From: Nocardioides sp. GY 10127
GTDB taxonomy: Bacteria > Actinomycetota > Actinomycetes > Propionibacteriales > Nocardioidaceae
Direction of reading: 5' to 3'
Assembly: GCF_004919085.1 (NCBI RefSeq)
Contig: NZ_STGL01000007.1
Coordinates: forward strand, 372,001 to 436,000
DNA: 64,000 bases
Shown here: positions 6,761 through 21,235 of the stretch, piece after piece
Layout of the letters: the number at the start of each line of letters is the position of its first letter
Numbering within the stretch: the stretch's first letter is position 1
Made by a program: the position numbers and the translations under genes
Notes under the pieces: model-generated
The model's input: only the letters and a program-made list of their open reading frames with translations
Told to the model about the DNA's origin: nothing
The model's database searches: none

Positions 6761-7210
6761 GTGCCACTCTCGGAAGAGGAACTCCGGATGCTCGAGCAGA
6801 TCGAGCGCGGCCTCTCCGCGGAGGATCCGAAGTTCGTCTCCACGCTGCGGGGGACCTCCCTGCGCCGTCGTGCGCAGCAGCGGGCCCTCATCGCGGGAGT
6901 CGTGTTCGTCCTCGGCGTGGGGATCCTGCTCGCCGGAGCCATGACGAAGCTCGTCCCGCTGGGCGTGGCCGGCTTCGTGGTGATGCTGGGCTCGGCCGTC
7001 TTCGGCCTCAACGCCCTGCGCACCCAGAACACCGGCCCCGCGGCCGCCGCCCCGACGCAGAGCGCCCACCCCTCCACGCGGTCGCGCCGCGGCCTGGGGG
7101 TCGTGGACGGCGGCAAGGCCCACCGCCCCGCCCGCACCTCCGGCTCCTTCATGGACCGCATGGAGGCCCGCTGGCAGCGTCGCCGCAACCAGCAGAACCG
7201 CGGTTTCTGA
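6761..7210 (+). CDS. DUF3040 membrane protein
   Basis: A 149-residue protein starting VPLSEEELRMLEQIERGLSAEDPKF, the typical DUF3040 opening. GTG 6761 was chosen over the upstream ATG at 6740 because it restores the family N-terminus and follows GGGAGGAAAC. A cytosolic N-terminal helix is followed by two membrane segments (about residues 43-62 and 65-84) and a basic cytosolic tail (RRGLG, MEARWQRRRNQQ). DUF3040 is an actinobacterial family of unknown function often found between dinB and mraZ. A hairpin separates it from the convergent operon downstream. Confidence 0.88.
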   Translation: MPLSEEELRMLEQIERGLSAEDPKFVSTLRGTSLRRRAQQRALIAGVVFVLGVGILLAGAMTKLVPLGVAGFVVMLGSAVFGLNALRTQNTGPAAAAPTQSAHPSTRSRRGLGVVDGGKAHRPARTSGSFMDRMEARWQRRRNQQNRGF

Positions 7211-7233
7211 CCGCAACCCCGACGTAGCACCGA

Positions 7234-7263
7234 CACCCCCGCCGGCCCCTGCCCGCGGGGGTG
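7234..7263. terminator. Hairpin between convergent genes
   Basis: Arms CACCCCCGC (7234-7242) and GCGGGGGTG (7255-7263) pair over 9 bp with a 12-nt loop. It lies between the DUF3040 stop and the stop of the opposing transglutaminase gene, so it can serve both. There is no T tract, as usual for high-GC genomes. Confidence 0.6.
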
Positions 7264-7312
7264 CGTCGTCTCCGGGCCTGCTCAGCCCAGCCGACCCGCT
7301 CAACCCAGCCGC

Positions 7313-9715
7313 TCAGCCCACCCGGTCGAGCGGCGCCGGCGCGGACGGGTGGGCCCGCCGCCTCCGGACGAGGCTGACCGGCAGCCACCGCGCCCGGGCC
7401 CGGGCCCGACGGCCCGCACCTGCGGCCAGCCCCGCGAGCACGGTCGTCACGTCGCCGGCCACGTCACCAGCGGCGTCACCGGCGCCCGTCTCCTGGGCGG
7501 CGGCCGATCCCGGGCGCGCGTAGCGGGCGAGCTCGACGGCCGCCACCAGCCGGTCCAGCGCGGCCGCGGCCCCGGGGTTCTGCTCCGGCCCCAGCACGGG
7601 CCGCTCCCGGTCGTCGCCGGGGTCGGCCAGGCGCGCCGCCAGCAGCGCGCCGACGGCCCGGGGCGAGGCGCCGTCCGGCCACGGCAGCCCGAGGTCCAGG
7701 ACGCCGGCCCGCAGCTCGGCCCACCGCCCCTCCGGTCCGCCCGCCAGGCGGCGGTGGCGCAGGACGGCGCGGAACCGGCCGGGCGCCGCCAGCAGCGTGG
7801 CGACGACCAGGGCGAGGAGCAGGACCAGCAGCGGCGTCCGCCAGGCCGGTGGGCCGGTGGGGGCGTCGGCGCCGGCCGCCGCCTCGTCCGGCTGCGGCTC
7901 CTCGTCCGGGGCCCGGGAGGCGACGTCGGAGGACGGGCGGCCCTGGGCGGGGTCGGTCTCGCCGGCCGAGGGCTGGGCCGTCGCCGAGGTCCCGGTGCTG
8001 GGCTGCACGGTGCCGGGGTCGAGCTGGGTGTACGACGGGACGCCCGAGGCCCGGCTGGCCGGCGTCGGCTCGAACCGCACCCAGCCGGCGGTCGGCAGGT
8101 AGAGCTCGGGCCAGGCGTGCATGTCGTAGGCCGAGAACTCCCACGAGCCGTCCTGCAGCCGGGTGGGGGCGAGGAACCCGACGGCGACCCGGGCGGGGAT
8201 GCCGAGGCTGCGGGCCATGACCGCCATGGCGGAGGCGAACTGCTCGCAGTACCCGACCCGGCCGCCGGGCGCGGTGGAGAGGAACGCGACGAGCGCGTCG
8301 ACGCCGTTGCCGGTCGGGACGTTCTCGAGGGAGTAGGTGAAGTCGCGGCGGAAGAAGTCCTGCAGCGCGACGGCCCGGGCCAGGTCCGTGTCGGCGCCCC
8401 GCGTCACCTCGCGGGCGAGCTCGCCCACGGACGCCGGCAGGTCGGAGGGGAGCTCGGTGAACCGGGCGTCCACCGCGGAGGTCCCGCCGGTCCCGGCGGC
8501 CCCGCTCTCGAGCTGGTCGGCCGAGAGCCGCAGGTCCAGGCCGGTCGTGGTGTAGGTGAGGCCCGCCGTGGTGACGTCCGGGTCGGTGGAGATGAAGTCC
8601 ATCGTCTCGGCGTCGTAGCGCCAGTCCCCGTCGGCGGTCACCGACGAGGCGGGCGCGAAGGTCGGCAGCCAGGTGGAGTCCAGGTCCTCGCCGACCGTCA
8701 GCGTGTAGCTGTGCTCGGTGCGGCGCACCGCGTTCGAGAGCCCGCCGAGCGGGAGCGGGCTGCCGTCGGCGACCTGGTCGGTGGGGATGGAGCGGTCCCC
8801 GGAGGTCCACTCGTTCTGGCCGAAGCGGGTGAGGACCGCGATCCGCAGGTAGCGGGGGTCGGGGTCGTCGGTGACGACCCGGACGAGCGGCACGTCCACG
8901 TCCCGGTGCAGGTCGCGGCGCAGGTCGGTCATGGGGTTGCGGATGACGACCTCGTTGCCGCCGGAGCCCGCACCGAGGTCGAGCAGGTGGACGTCGAGCG
9001 CGGGCAGCGCCGTCGGGACGGCCAGGGCCAGCGAGGCCGCGCAGGCCCCGACACCCACCGCGGTCAGTCGCACGCCGGCGGTCCGGACCCCGAGCGCGCC
9101 GGCCGGTGCGGCGTCCTCCTCGAGGCCGGTGCCCCAGCGGGCGACCGACTCCGAGGCGTCCAGGAAGAGCAGCAGGACCCACCCGAGCACGGTGGCGAGG
9201 AAGACCCACCAGGGCGGCGTGGCCCCGAGGATGCTGACGGGCAGGGTGAAGACCACGAGGAGGGGGAGCGCGGCGAGCGCCGGGCGGCGCAGGCCGCCGG
9301 CCAGGGTGTCGACGAGCAGCAGGCACCACCACCCGCTCACGACGAGCACGGCGTCCAGGCCGGCGTCGGTCGCCACCGGCGGCGCGTAGGCCCGCGCGGC
9401 CAGGACACCGCGGCTCATGGTCGCGTCGAGGGCGTCCCACCCCGCGCCGACCGGGACGGGGTAGCCGGTCAGCAGGTAGGTGACGGCGCACGCCCCGAGC
9501 ACCACCTGGGCGACGACGACCACGGTGCTCGACAGGCCGAGCGCCCGTCCGCCGCCACCGAGCAGGGCGACGAGGACGGCGAGCCCCGCCAGGGGCACCA
9601 GGTGCGCCGAGGGGTCCTCGGTGAAGCCGCTCCAGCCCCAGCAGGCCACCCACGTGGTGAGGGCCGCCAGCAGCGAGGAGACGAGGGCGGCGGCCCAGGA
9701 GGGTCGGCGGCTCAC
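7313..9715 (-). CDS. Membrane-anchored transglutaminase-like protein (DUF3488/TgpA type)
   Basis: An 800-residue membrane protein. The N-terminal third has six or more hydrophobic segments (DUF3488 region), followed by a large extracytoplasmic domain with the transglutaminase-like core: nucleophile in GYCEQFASAMAVMAR (C490) and YDMHAWPELY (H533). A Pro/Thr-rich linker (about 560-620), one more membrane helix (about 628-645) and a cytosolic DUF4129-like tail follow. GTG 9715 overlaps the DUF58 stop as GTGA, indicating translational coupling. MoxR, DUF58 and this gene form the common actinobacterial triad whose substrate is unknown; a cell-envelope or protein cross-linking role is inferred. The third catalytic residue, usually Asp, is not clear; FEPTP occupies the region. 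Confidence 0.9.
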   Translation of the reverse strand: MSRRPSWAAALVSSLLAALTTWVACWGWSGFTEDPSAHLVPLAGLAVLVALLGGGGRALGLSSTVVVVAQVVLGACAVTYLLTGYPVPVGAGWDALDATMSRGVLAARAYAPPVATDAGLDAVLVVSGWWCLLLVDTLAGGLRRPALAALPLLVVFTLPVSILGATPPWWVFLATVLGWVLLLFLDASESVARWGTGLEEDAAPAGALGVRTAGVRLTAVGVGACAASLALAVPTALPALDVHLLDLGAGSGGNEVVIRNPMTDLRRDLHRDVDVPLVRVVTDDPDPRYLRIAVLTRFGQNEWTSGDRSIPTDQVADGSPLPLGGLSNAVRRTEHSYTLTVGEDLDSTWLPTFAPASSVTADGDWRYDAETMDFISTDPDVTTAGLTYTTTGLDLRLSADQLESGAAGTGGTSAVDARFTELPSDLPASVGELAREVTRGADTDLARAVALQDFFRRDFTYSLENVPTGNGVDALVAFLSTAPGGRVGYCEQFASAMAVMARSLGIPARVAVGFLAPTRLQDGSWEFSAYDMHAWPELYLPTAGWVRFEPTPASRASGVPSYTQLDPGTVQPSTGTSATAQPSAGETDPAQGRPSSDVASRAPDEEPQPDEAAAGADAPTGPPAWRTPLLVLLLALVVATLLAAPGRFRAVLRHRRLAGGPEGRWAELRAGVLDLGLPWPDGASPRAVGALLAARLADPGDDRERPVLGPEQNPGAAAALDRLVAAVELARYARPGSAAAQETGAGDAAGDVAGDVTTVLAGLAAGAGRRARARARWLPVSLVRRRRAHPSAPAPLDRVG

Positions 9716-16914: not shown

Positions 16915-18552
16915 GTGAACACCTCCCACGACGCCCCCGAAGGCCCCGCTCCGCTCGACCCGCGCCCGGTCGACCCGCCGCGCACGCCGCTGGCGGCCCT
17001 GGCCGCGCACCTGCGCGCCGCCGGCTCACCCGTCGAGGAGGTGCGCCCCGGTCCGGACCCCGTCCTCACGGGCATCACCCTGGCCACGACGCGCGTCCGC
17101 CCGGGCGACCTCTACGCGGCCCTGCCCGGCACGCGGGCCCACGGGGCGGACTACGCCGCGCAGGCGCTCGAGGCTGGCGCCGTCGCGGTGCTCACCGACG
17201 CGGACGGCGCGGCGCGGCTGCCCGCGGGCGTCCCCACGCTCGTGGTGCCCGACCCACGCCGGGTCCTCGGCCGCGCGAGCGCGCACGTCTACGGCGAGCC
17301 GGCACGGCGGCTGCGGATGATCGGCGTCACCGGCACGCAGGGCAAGACCACCACCACGCGCCTGCTGGAGGGCGGCCTCAGCGCCGCCGGGCTCGTCTCG
17401 GCGGTCGTCGGCACCGTGGGCACGCGCATCGCGGGCCGGGACGTCCAGACGTCGCTCACCACCCCCGAGGCCCCGGACCTGCACGGGCTCTTCGCCGTCA
17501 TGGTGGAGCAGGGCGTCGAGGTGTGCGCGATGGAGGTCTCCAGCCACGCCCTCGTCCTGGGTCGCGTCGACGGGGTCGTCTTCGACGTCGCCGTCTTCCT
17601 CAACCTCGGCCGCGACCACCTCGACTTCCACCCCACCGTGGAGGACTACTTCCAGGCGAAGGCCTCGCTCTTCACCCCCGAGCGCGCCCGGCTCGCCGTC
17701 GTCAACGCGGACGACGAGCACGGACGCCGCCTCGTGGCCCAGACCGCCCTGCCGGTCACCACGTTCTCGACGGCAGCCCCGGCGGCCTCGGGGGAGCCCC
17801 CGGCCGACTGGTGGGTCTCGGACGTGCGCACCGCACCCAGCCGCTCCGACCTCGTGGTCCACGGGCCCGGGGGAGTCTCCGAGCCCGCCGGGGTGCCGCT
17901 GGCCGGGGGCTACAACGTCTCCAACGTCCTGGCCGCGCTCACCGCGACCGCCGTCGCCGACCTCGACCCGCTGCTCGGGGTCCCGGAAGGTGACGGGTCC
18001 GGCGCCACCGCGCTCGCGCGCGTCGCCGCCGGGATCTCCGGCCTCCCCGGCGTCCCGGGGCGGCTGGAGAGCGTCCCGGGCGCCCCCGGCTTCGAGGTCG
18101 TCGTCGACTACGCGCACAAGCCGGACGCCGTGCAGGCCGCCATCGACGCCCTGCGCCCCCTGGCGACGGGCCGTGTGCTCGTCGTCCTCGGTGCGGGCGG
18201 GGACCGGGACACGGGCAAGCGCCCAGTCATGGGCGAGATCGCCGCGCGCCTGGCGGACGTCCTCGTCGTCACCGACGACAACCCGCGCTCGGAGGAGCCC
18301 GCCGTCATCCGTGCCGCGGTGCTGGCCGGGGCCCGCTCGGTCCCGGAGCCGGAGCGCGCGGAGGTGCTCGAGGTGTGCGACCGCCGTGAGGCCATCGCCA
18401 CCGCGCTGCGCGCCGCCGCGCCGGGCGACATCGTGCTGGTGGCCGGCAAGGGTCACGAGACCGGGCAGCTGGTCGCCGGCGTCCTGCACCCCTTCGACGA
18501 CCGCGAGGTGGCCGCCGAGCTCCTCGCCGCCATGGCCGGGGAGCCGACGTGA
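16915..18552 (+). CDS. murE: UDP-MurNAc-tripeptide synthetase MurE
   Basis: A 545-residue cytosolic Mur ligase that adds the third, diamino acid residue of the peptidoglycan stem. The N-terminal UDP-binding domain includes VRPGDLYAALPG; the ATP site is GVTGTQGKTTTTRLLE (about residues 136-151); MEVSSHAL and VVDYAHKPDA are typical. The specificity motif reads DNPR (455-458), known from enzymes that add a diaminopimelate-type residue, although the motif alone does not settle Lys versus DAP in actinobacteria. murF, normally next, is absent; mraY follows after 122 bp. Confidence 0.94.
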   Translation: MNTSHDAPEGPAPLDPRPVDPPRTPLAALAAHLRAAGSPVEEVRPGPDPVLTGITLATTRVRPGDLYAALPGTRAHGADYAAQALEAGAVAVLTDADGAARLPAGVPTLVVPDPRRVLGRASAHVYGEPARRLRMIGVTGTQGKTTTTRLLEGGLSAAGLVSAVVGTVGTRIAGRDVQTSLTTPEAPDLHGLFAVMVEQGVEVCAMEVSSHALVLGRVDGVVFDVAVFLNLGRDHLDFHPTVEDYFQAKASLFTPERARLAVVNADDEHGRRLVAQTALPVTTFSTAAPAASGEPPADWWVSDVRTAPSRSDLVVHGPGGVSEPAGVPLAGGYNVSNVLAALTATAVADLDPLLGVPEGDGSGATALARVAAGISGLPGVPGRLESVPGAPGFEVVVDYAHKPDAVQAAIDALRPLATGRVLVVLGAGGDRDTGKRPVMGEIAARLADVLVVTDDNPRSEEPAVIRAAVLAGARSVPEPERAEVLEVCDRREAIATALRAAAPGDIVLVAGKGHETGQLVAGVLHPFDDREVAAELLAAMAGEPT

Positions 18553-18674
18553 GCGGCTTCACGCGGCCGGGGCGACTGGGTCCAGGGTGCCGCGTGGGCC
18601 AGAATGCGCAGGGCCCCCTCCCGGGGGTGGGCCCGGGGGAGGACGACCGAGCCGTGAACGAGAGAGGGGCCTAG

Positions 18675-19763
18675 ATGCGCGCCATCCTGCTGGCCGGAGG
18701 GCTCTCGCTGCTGCTGTCCCTGGTGGGCACGCGGTACGCGATCCGCTACTTCACCCGGCTGGGCTACGGGCAGGAGATCCGCGAGGACGGGCCGACGAGC
18801 CACCACACCAAGCGCGGCACCCCCACGATGGGTGGCGTCGCGATCATCCTGGCCGCGGTGGTCGGGTACTTCGTGGCCAAGCTCGTCACCGGCTCGATGC
18901 CGAGCGCCTCGGCGCTGCTGCTCCTGTTCCTCTTCGTGGGCACGGGCCTGGTGGGCTTCCTCGACGACTTCATCAAGATCTACAAGCAGCGCAACCTCGG
19001 GCTGCGCAGCAAGGCCAAGATCGTCGGTCAGACGATCGTCGGCCTCGTCTTCGCCGGGCTCGCCCTGAGCCCCTGGCTCGAGGACGAGCGGGGCCAGCGC
19101 CCGGCCTCCGCCGCGATCTCCTTCATCCGCGACCTCTCCTGGCTGACGCTGCCCGCGGTCGTCGCGGCCGTGTTCATCCTCGTCGTCGTCATCGGCGGCT
19201 CGAACGCCGTCAACCTCACCGACGGCGCCGACGGCCTGGCCACCGGTGCCAGCGTGATGGTCTTCGGCGCCTACACGCTGGTGAACATCTGGCAGAACAA
19301 CCAGTGGTGCGGCCAGTCCTCCATCGACTACGGCCAGTGCTACGAGGTGCGCGACCCGCTCGACCTGGCCGTCCTGTCGGCCGCGATCACCGGTGCCTGC
19401 TTCGGCTTCCTGTGGTGGAACGCGGCGCCGGCGCAGATCTTCATGGGCGACACGGGGTCGCTGGCGCTCGGCGCCGCCCTCGCCGGCCTGGCGGTGCTCA
19501 CCCGCACCGAGCTGCTGCTCGTCATCCTCGGTGGCGTCTTCGTGCTGGAGACCGTCTCGGTGATGCTGCAGGTGAGCTGGTTCAAGATCACCCGGAAGGC
19601 GACCGGCACGGGCAAGCGGCTGTTCCGCATCGCGCCGATCCACCACCACTTCGAGATGGTGTGGGACGAGATCACCGTCGTGATCCGGTTCTGGATCATC
19701 ACCGGCATCTGCGTCGCCGCGGGCACGGGCATCTTCTACGCCCAGTGGGTGGCGGGCACGTGA
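18675..19763 (+). CDS. mraY: Phospho-MurNAc-pentapeptide-transferase MraY
   Basis: A 362-residue polytopic membrane enzyme (about ten helices) that transfers phospho-MurNAc-pentapeptide to undecaprenyl phosphate, forming lipid I. Signature motifs: HHTKRGTPTMGG (about residues 46-57), FLDDFIK, NLTDGADGLATG (about 178-189) and the histidine motif APIHHHFE (about 320-327). ATG 18675 follows GAGAGGGGCC. The stop overlaps murD as GTGA. The 122-bp stretch before it is where murF would normally be; it contains only a GGGCCC/GGGCCCGG-rich segment and the ribosome-binding site. Confidence 0.96.
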   Translation: MRAILLAGGLSLLLSLVGTRYAIRYFTRLGYGQEIREDGPTSHHTKRGTPTMGGVAIILAAVVGYFVAKLVTGSMPSASALLLLFLFVGTGLVGFLDDFIKIYKQRNLGLRSKAKIVGQTIVGLVFAGLALSPWLEDERGQRPASAAISFIRDLSWLTLPAVVAAVFILVVVIGGSNAVNLTDGADGLATGASVMVFGAYTLVNIWQNNQWCGQSSIDYGQCYEVRDPLDLAVLSAAITGACFGFLWWNAAPAQIFMGDTGSLALGAALAGLAVLTRTELLLVILGGVFVLETVSVMLQVSWFKITRKATGTGKRLFRIAPIHHHFEMVWDEITVVIRFWIITGICVAAGTGIFYAQWVAGT

Positions 19764-21235
19764 GCCGCGACGTCGACGCCCTCGGGCGCCTGGACTCCTG
19801 GGAGGGCGTCCGTGCCGTGGTCGCGGGCTTCGGGGTCTCCGGGTTCGCCGCGGCCGACAACCTCACCCATCTCGGCGCCTCGGTGACCGCGCTGGACGAG
19901 AACGCCGCCGGCAAGGAGGAGAAGGCCGAGCTCCTGGAGGTCCTCGGGGCCACGGTGCGGCTCGAACCGGGGGCGACCGCCGTCCTGCCCGACGGGTGCG
20001 ACGTCCTCGTCACCTCCCCGGGCTGGCGGCCGGACGCCCCGCTCCTGGCGGCGGCGCGCGAGCGCGGCATCCCCGTGTGGGGCGAGGTCGAGCTCGCGTG
20101 GCGCCTGCGCCACCCCGAGCACGACACCCCCTGGCTGGCCGTCACCGGCACCAACGGCAAGACCACGACCGTGCAGATGCTCGAGACGATCCTGCGCGCG
20201 GGCGGCCTGCGCACCGTGGCCGCCGGCAACGTCGGCCTCCCGATCGTCGAGGCCGTGATGGACCCCGAGCCGTGGGACGTCCTGGCGGTCGAGCTCTCGA
20301 GCTTCCAGCTGCACTACACGTCCTCCATGAGCGCGCAGGCCTCCGCCGTCCTCAACGTCGCCGAGGACCACCTGGACTGGTACGCGACCATCGACCCCGC
20401 CGACCCGATGCGTGCCTACGCCGCCGACAAGGGCCGGATCTTCGAGCGCGCCCAGCGGGCCTGCGTCTACAACGTGGCCGACCCGGTCACCGAGCAGCTC
20501 GTGCGCGACGCGGACGTGGTGGAAGGCGCCCGAGCGGTCGGCTTCACCCTCGGCATGCCCGGCGTGGGCATGCTCGGCCTGGTCGAGGACCTGCTCGTCG
20601 ACCGCGCCTTCATCGAGGAGCGCGACACCAGTGCCGCCGAGCTGTGCTCGGTCTCCGAGCTCTCCAGCCAGGCCCCGCACCACGTGGCGAACGCCCTCGC
20701 GGCGGCCGCGCTGGCCCGGGCGCACGGCGTCTCGCGGGCGGCCGTCCGCGAGGGGCTCACCCGCTTCCACGCCGGCGGCCACCGGATCGAGACCGTCGCC
20801 GAGTCCGGCGGCGTGACCTGGGTGGACGACTCCAAGGCCACCAACCCGCACGCGGCCCGGGCCTCGCTGGAGGCCTTCGAGTCGGTCGTCTGGGTGGCCG
20901 GCGGGCTGGCCAAGGGCGCGACGTTCGAGGACCTCGTGGCCCACGTGAAGGGCCGCCTGCGCGGCGTCGTCCTGCTCGGGCGGGACCGTGACCTGATCGC
21001 CGCCGCGCTGGCCCGACACGCCCCGGATGTCCCCGTGATCGTGGTGGACGGGGCCGACACTGGTGCGACGGACGAGCACGGCCCCATGGGGCGCGTCGTC
21101 GAGGCCGCCGCAGGTCTCGCCCAGCCGGGCGACACCGTGCTGCTGGCCCCGGGGTGCGCGTCGATGGACATGTTCACCGACTACGGCGCACGCGGCGACG
21201 CGTTCGCCGCGGCCGTCCGGGCCCACCTGGCCTGA
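19760..21235 (+). CDS. murD: UDP-MurNAc-L-alanine:D-glutamate ligase MurD
   Basis: A 491-residue Mur ligase that adds D-glutamate to UDP-MurNAc-L-Ala. The Rossmann-like N-terminus (VVAGFGVSGFAAADNL), the ATP site VTGTNGKTTTV (about residues 128-138), ELSSFQLHY and DDSKATNPHAA are all present. GTG 19760 overlaps the mraY stop. The protein is slightly longer than typical because of a short spacer near 260-300. Confidence 0.95.
   Translation: MSRDVDALGRLDSWEGVRAVVAGFGVSGFAAADNLTHLGASVTALDENAAGKEEKAELLEVLGATVRLEPGATAVLPDGCDVLVTSPGWRPDAPLLAAARERGIPVWGEVELAWRLRHPEHDTPWLAVTGTNGKTTTVQMLETILRAGGLRTVAAGNVGLPIVEAVMDPEPWDVLAVELSSFQLHYTSSMSAQASAVLNVAEDHLDWYATIDPADPMRAYAADKGRIFERAQRACVYNVADPVTEQLVRDADVVEGARAVGFTLGMPGVGMLGLVEDLLVDRAFIEERDTSAAELCSVSELSSQAPHHVANALAAAALARAHGVSRAAVREGLTRFHAGGHRIETVAESGGVTWVDDSKATNPHAARASLEAFESVVWVAGGLAKGATFEDLVAHVKGRLRGVVLLGRDRDLIAAALARHAPDVPVIVVDGADTGATDEHGPMGRVVEAAAGLAQPGDTVLLAPGCASMDMFTDYGARGDAFAAAVRAHLA

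Follow-up and report, generated by a model that had tools for sequence, protein, structure and literature searches.

The best reading of the evidence assembled here is that Nocardioides sp. GY 10127 has truly lost its standard MurF and that both MurF and Ddl have been replaced in situ. In the absence of the canonical enzymes, a divergent Ddl (DdlA) very probably makes D-Ala-D-Ala, which a divergent MurF homologue designated TM-MurF would ligate, with ATP, to the muramyl tripeptide produced by MurE. This proposal draws on four features of the sequences: the lack of the canonical genes, the presence of different MurF/Ddl sets in one chromosomal slot, the retention of MurF active-site residues in TM-MurF, and the near-exclusion of TM-MurF and housekeeping MurF.

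The window analysed is the 64-kb stretch C14:372001-436000 of the GY 10127 genome (G000), which comprises 4.40 Mb in 20 contigs and is 99.5% complete. Here, murE (16915-18552, plus strand, stop codon TGA at 18550-18552) is the final Mur ligase gene ahead of the gap, and its product scores 574 bits against the DAP-type MurE model NF001124 (cut-off 476). It is directly followed by mraY (18675-19763, plus strand, ATG at 18675; 310 bits). The intervening 122 bp (18553-18674, plus strand) hold no murF, exactly as the first-pass annotation of this DNA had described. Searched in six frames, the gap matches neither the MurF model nor the model of the Mur middle domain, and a tblastn search of 13 junctions with 24 MurFs for a murF remnant returned E values of at least 0.05 among the matches listed. 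Two long frames cross the gap, one on the minus strand (18453-19649) and one on the plus strand (17990-21235, 1081 codons). The latter is murD extended at its 5' end through out-of-frame murE, the junction and mraY, and is real only in its last part; the earlier description of the frame as a shadow of murE and mraY therefore holds for the part crossing the gap.

Comparison with relatives places this gap in context. The usual murE-murF-mraY order assumed at the outset is indeed that of the genus, most of which keeps its dcw murF: the gene adjoins murE in 12 of the 20 relatives compared. At the same time, murF is absent from the murE-mraY junction in all 12 relatives chosen for measurement (nine with TM-MurF and three with a murF-ddl slot, described below), so that the caveat that relatives might always lack murF at this place applies to the gap itself. 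Across the 13 measured genomes, GY 10127 included, the gap spans 103-187 bp; these genomes were picked by slot type and are not a random sample. Because the junction lacks murF in GY 10127, in nine other TM-MurF genomes and in three murF-ddl-slot genomes, the gap in dcw is by itself a feature shared by these lineages, and the new part is what took over. The gap probably also carries the mraY promoter, to judge from a -10-like box (CAGAAT, 18600-18605, plus strand) 75 bases before mraY. A box of the form NANNAT occurs in 13/13 junctions, against a shuffle mean of 2.8 and with none of 2000 shuffles reaching 13, although the junctions are mutually related and the pattern was picked only once the sequences had been seen.

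The first-pass annotation reasoned that murF must lie elsewhere or have been replaced, and the genome argues for replacement. Throughout GY 10127, no MurF exceeds 288.6 bits, the cut-off of TIGR01143; the top match reaches 196 bits (C14:182765-183784), about 206 kb upstream of murE, and belongs to a divergent homologue in a slot between gpsA and thiL. This homologue, TM-MurF, fills the slot that holds murF-ddl in four relatives. Likewise, no Ddl exceeds the TIGR01205 cut-off of 245.65, and the two best matches, at 184 and 168 bits, sit beside the 196-bit MurF match. The separately assembled relative G082, whose murE is 82% identical, also lacks canonical MurF and Ddl above cut-off.

TM-MurF of GY 10127 is a protein of 504 residues (L031:9801-11312, plus strand). 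It resembles canonical MurF (TIGR01143) in its middle and C-terminal domains (PF08245 and PF02875, both above cut-off) and differs in its N-terminal part. The UDP-binding N-domain PF01225 was not found in the two TM-MurFs searched, but is present in MurE and in a canonical MurF encoded in a relative's van cluster; the N-terminal stretches of four TM-MurFs gave no Pfam match at E 1. A structural model of the Nocardioides luteus orthologue (pLDDT 94.1, pTM 0.89) is helical from residue 1 to about 160, and its best structural matches are the MurF structures 3zl8 (Z 37.1 over 357 residues, rmsd 5.0) and 4qf5 (Z 36.4 over 361 residues, rmsd 5.3). Modelled alone, the N-terminal part reaches pLDDT 96.1; a Foldseek search with this membrane domain gave 34 matches, none at E <= 0.001, and the best Z obtained with VIA was 3.4. 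At least two polar-free hydrophobic runs precede the P-loop in 54/54 TM-MurFs (54 of 80 loci), while among 24 canonical MurFs one has two such runs anywhere and ten have one. A plain hydropathy count separates the sets imperfectly, a window above 1.6 occurring also in 13/24 canonical MurFs. Judged by the predicted model and hydropathy, the UDP-binding N-domain looks to have been swapped for a predicted helical membrane domain, with the catalytic and C-terminal domains kept.

Conservation is pronounced in both parts of the protein. In an alignment of 43 of the 54 TM-MurFs, R20, Q23, R24, H26 and Y27 (N. luteus numbering) and six more N-terminal positions are invariant in 43/43. The catalytic part has 32 positions that are conserved (at least 95%) across 55 TM-MurFs as well as across 24 canonical MurFs, among them P-loop K178, N203/N204, H256, K270 and D392/N395/N397, and the DDxxNxNP motif is shared with canonical MurF. 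The C-terminal KAS motif of MurF is ENDLPDHY in TM-MurF, and the substrate contacts therefore differ. In published work on MurT and Mur ligases, the P-loop Lys is linked to ATP, the Asn to the carboxylate of the acceptor and a His to Mg (PMC6085368). By our own mapping, K178, N203/N204 and H256 of TM-MurF would fit these three roles. No description of a membrane MurF was found among the matches listed in open-access PMC literature, and a plasmid collection queried with TM-MurF gave 76 records, none covering 80% of it, the best being 31% identical and annotated as murF.

The loss of the UDP-binding domain, by analogy with MurT, suggests that D-Ala-D-Ala would be added at the lipid stage. MurT, which is described as lacking the N-domain, acts on lipid I/II and not on UDP precursors (PMC6085368); for a second MurT structure, its authors contend that the pyrophosphate marks the membrane face and that the membrane would leave no room for an N-domain (PMC6113224). 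MurT differs in pairing with GatD, in amidating D-Glu and in having a short flexible N-terminus; TM-MurF has MurF motifs, a predicted membrane domain and a Ddl neighbour. By this analogy, the TM-MurF reaction would take place at the membrane face, and a lipid-linked tripeptide (lipid I or II), formed after MraY, is somewhat likelier as acceptor than UDP-tripeptide. MraY and MurG accept tripeptide forms.

A lesser but still serious possibility is that TM-MurF acts at the usual step, on UDP-MurNAc-tripeptide, with the membrane domain just keeping the enzyme near MraY and MurG. The catalytic and C-terminal domains are, after all, those of MurF, and five genomes combine a sole MraY with both TM-MurF and a van-cluster MurF, a setting in which MraY probably takes five-residue UDP precursors. 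Against this stand the UDP-binding domain of Mur ligases, not found in TM-MurF, and the invariant N-terminal residues listed above, which by our argument exceed what anchoring needs. A second MraY was considered as a sign of lipid-stage addition and proved uninformative: it is present in 7 of 20 genomes searched, comprising three of the eight van-bearing TM-MurF genomes (G001, G018 and G036) as well as G003, G004, G009 and G010, and absent from the other five of the eight. In GY 10127, no second MraY was found besides that of the window. In G001 (L044), two mraY genes follow murE in tandem (7132-8214 and 8404-9519), their products being 68% and 64% identical to the window MraY.

The preferred assignment of D-Ala-D-Ala as the added dipeptide draws on the partners of TM-MurF. 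In GY 10127, the genes run in the order alpha/beta hydrolase, TM-MurF and DdlA, followed by DdlB on the other strand. The hydrolase gene (L031:9028-9804, plus strand) overlaps the start of TM-MurF and travels with the module: among the 80 best-scoring named-contig TM-MurF loci it is found in 74, always before TM-MurF and on the same strand (74/74), and 72 of these 74 carry a GxSxGG motif. DdlA, a divergent Ddl of 371 aa downstream of TM-MurF, is found in 72 of the 80 loci, in 70 of them on the same strand. Three of the eight loci without it (L068, L074 and L117) end 150 bases or less from TM-MurF; the other five (L065, L067, L085, L105 and L121) have at least 1.1 kb of downstream sequence, and the linkage is therefore strong but incomplete. 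DdlB (L031:12655-13644, minus strand), a Ddl-like ATP-grasp protein beside the operon, is unlikely to be the true Ddl, as it carries ExA in place of ExN in 12/12 Nocardioides; the Asn of the ExN motif has a role in Ddl. DdlB is also found beside the canonical murF-ddl of G013 and G016.

That the module adds some other dipeptide or depsipeptide, leaving a stem that does not end in D-Ala-D-Ala, is improbable. DdlA does stand apart from other Ddl types in the tree, and its 168 bits against TIGR01205 leave it below cut-off there, as with all 25 models listed. However, both Ddl domains are recognized above cut-off (PF07478 at 83.4 bits, cut-off 24; PF01820 at 53.9 bits, cut-off 34.6), and the GGSSxG and ExNxxPG motifs are each kept in 71/72 loci. 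A further argument comes from a vanX homologue (D-Ala-D-Ala dipeptidase) in 8 of the 10 TM-MurF Nocardioides, which is most easily explained by a resident route ending in D-Ala-D-Ala. These eight are the TM-MurF genomes that also have a canonical murF, and the presence of vanX in all eight suggests such a route. In six, vanH and a D-Ala-D-Lac-type ligase adjoin the canonical murF, and this ligase exceeds the cut-off of its own model in 3/3 tested. In G018 and G036, the neighbours of the canonical murF are vanX and a Ddl-type ligase, joined in G018 by an alanine racemase, and sensor and regulator frames, read by eye, follow. Because the ligase in these two genomes exceeds ordinary D-Ala-D-Ala ligase cut-offs, this second set could be housekeeping, and the label "van-type" is there a reading only.

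The distribution of TM-MurF bears on whether it is the working enzyme. Among 108 Nocardioides genomes, 10 have TM-MurF and 105 have a MurF above cut-off, the exceptions being GY 10127, G082 and G048; the last, 85% complete, has neither MurF above cut-off nor TM-MurF. MurF above cut-off is found in 97 of the 98 genomes without TM-MurF. Of the ten with it, GY 10127 and G082 lack canonical MurF and the other eight have a single canonical murF, with vanX and a Ddl-type ligase next to it.

A phylum sample of 296 genomes of at least 90% completeness, whose counts are not phylogenetically independent, contains 26 genomes that match TM-MurF at E 1e-60. Fifteen match strongly: in 13 the match is unbroken and begins at model position 3-15, in G396 it is split into two pieces, each on its own contig, and in G295 it begins only at position 96; the remaining 11, of family f9, match from position 37-92. 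MurF is above cut-off in 263/296 genomes. The best MurF-model match in the 26 TM-MurF genomes, judged by best E and not by the cut-off flag, lies between E 7e-38 and 2e-73. Among the 270 genomes without TM-MurF, the best match falls short of E 1e-75 in 15 and is lacking altogether in one; weak MurF matches are therefore not peculiar to TM-MurF. Ddl is below cut-off in 14/14 other strong-group genomes, 13 of which encode a Ddl-like protein no more than about 1 kb from TM-MurF, and above cut-off in 10/10 control genomes. It is also above cut-off in 5/5 f9 genomes tested out of 11 in the family, so that Ddl replacement is not general, although f9 loci have the same neighbours and, by eye, a hydrophobic N-terminal part and a related motif (4/4 loci). 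Nine members of another family, f21 (G121, G182, G193, G234, G244, G293, G317, G365 and G380), have best MurF matches of E 1e-54 to 1e-60 and fall below the TM-MurF threshold, and possibly carry a further divergent MurF; f21 member G359 has a stronger MurF match (3e-90). A scan of named contigs gave at least 555 confirmed TM-MurF stretches, of at least 590. The best 80 of these come from Nocardioides, Arsenicicoccus, Modestobacter, Actinotalea, Microbacteriaceae, one Mycobacterium sp. and many Acidimicrobiia; among the matches listed, the closest named relatives of the GY 10127 protein are from N. luteus (61%).

From these counts, TM-MurF and housekeeping MurF seem nearly to exclude each other, which speaks against TM-MurF being an accessory paralogue while a different Mur ligase adds D-Ala-D-Ala. 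Some Mur ligases are promiscuous, which lends that idea a little plausibility. A Mur_ligase_M search of GY 10127 found five places, namely murE, TM-MurF, murD, murC and a putative folC, among which TM-MurF is the sole MurF-like one, and we consider the idea very unlikely.

The replacement is best seen at the slot itself. In GY 10127, its flanks comprise leuC, plsC, gpsA and a PLP enzyme to one side, and DUF3515, thiL, DAK and recG to the other, gene names here being a reading of Pfam domains. Apart from leuC, which lies outside the 20 kb fetched in six luteus-type genomes, and DUF3515, these genes occur in the same order in 25/25 fetched slot loci. Three states of the slot were found: ddl without murF in 11/11 fetched genomes having dcw murF, canonical murF-ddl in G006, G010, G013 and G016, and hydrolase-TM-MurF-DdlA in 10/10 TM-MurF Nocardioides genomes. 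The notion that canonical murF, with ddl, is present but hidden by an assembly gap draws on the 20 contigs and on the adjacency of murF and ddl in some relatives, where one gap could hide both, but is rejected as scarcely credible, since the expected slot lies unbroken within one contig, occupied by TM-MurF-DdlA, G082 repeats the pattern, and the single-contig genomes G001, G036 and G072 have the same operon, with canonical murF solely in the van-type cluster.

In a tree of six flank proteins from 25 genomes, picked by slot type and not a random sample, TM-MurF genomes fall in three places, near murF-ddl genomes. Yet a single clade (support 1.0) unites the Nocardioides TM-MurFs in a tree of 26 named loci (of 80), two Modestobacter pieces and seven Nocardioides genomes. 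This scatter of genomes around one clade would be explained by exchange among members of the genus or by loss followed by regain. Parsimony on the flank tree requires six changes whichever state is placed at the root. The DdlB proteins of G013 and G016, encoded beside murF-ddl, fall in one clade with those of GY 10127 and G082 (support 0.98), which hints at swaps in both directions. The slot murF (L033, L034, L036 and L038) groups with the van-cluster MurF of luteus-type genomes (support 1.0) and not with dcw MurF; the slot murF-ddl pair may thus itself be a replacement.

Related cases are known from other systems. The teicoplanin van cluster is described as carrying murF2 with vanHAX, an alternative murF beside a Ddl-type ligase (PMC4790382); this differs from the present case in that the van-cluster MurF, as seen in G001, is canonical, has the N-domain and is additional to TM-MurF. 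Kitasatospora MglA, a distant homologue, is reported to be able to substitute for MurG, and so offers a precedent for replacing an essential wall enzyme in actinobacteria (PMC8092295). MglA acts at another step of the pathway, and the GY 10127 genome no longer has the canonical gene.

MurF is, to our knowledge, regarded as a drug target and as catalysing a soluble, UDP-linked step that is universal. A broader scheme, which we regard as evenly poised between right and wrong, is that in several actinobacterial lineages MraY would first pass the tripeptide to the lipid carrier, a membrane-embedded MurF would then add D-Ala-D-Ala to lipid I/II, and murF-ddl and hydrolase-TM-MurF-DdlA would be interchangeable cassettes of one slot. 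Replacement by TM-MurF in several actinobacterial families would shift where the vancomycin-binding D-Ala-D-Ala end is made, and since nature has exchanged the cassettes at one slot, the question can be tested directly in closely related species.
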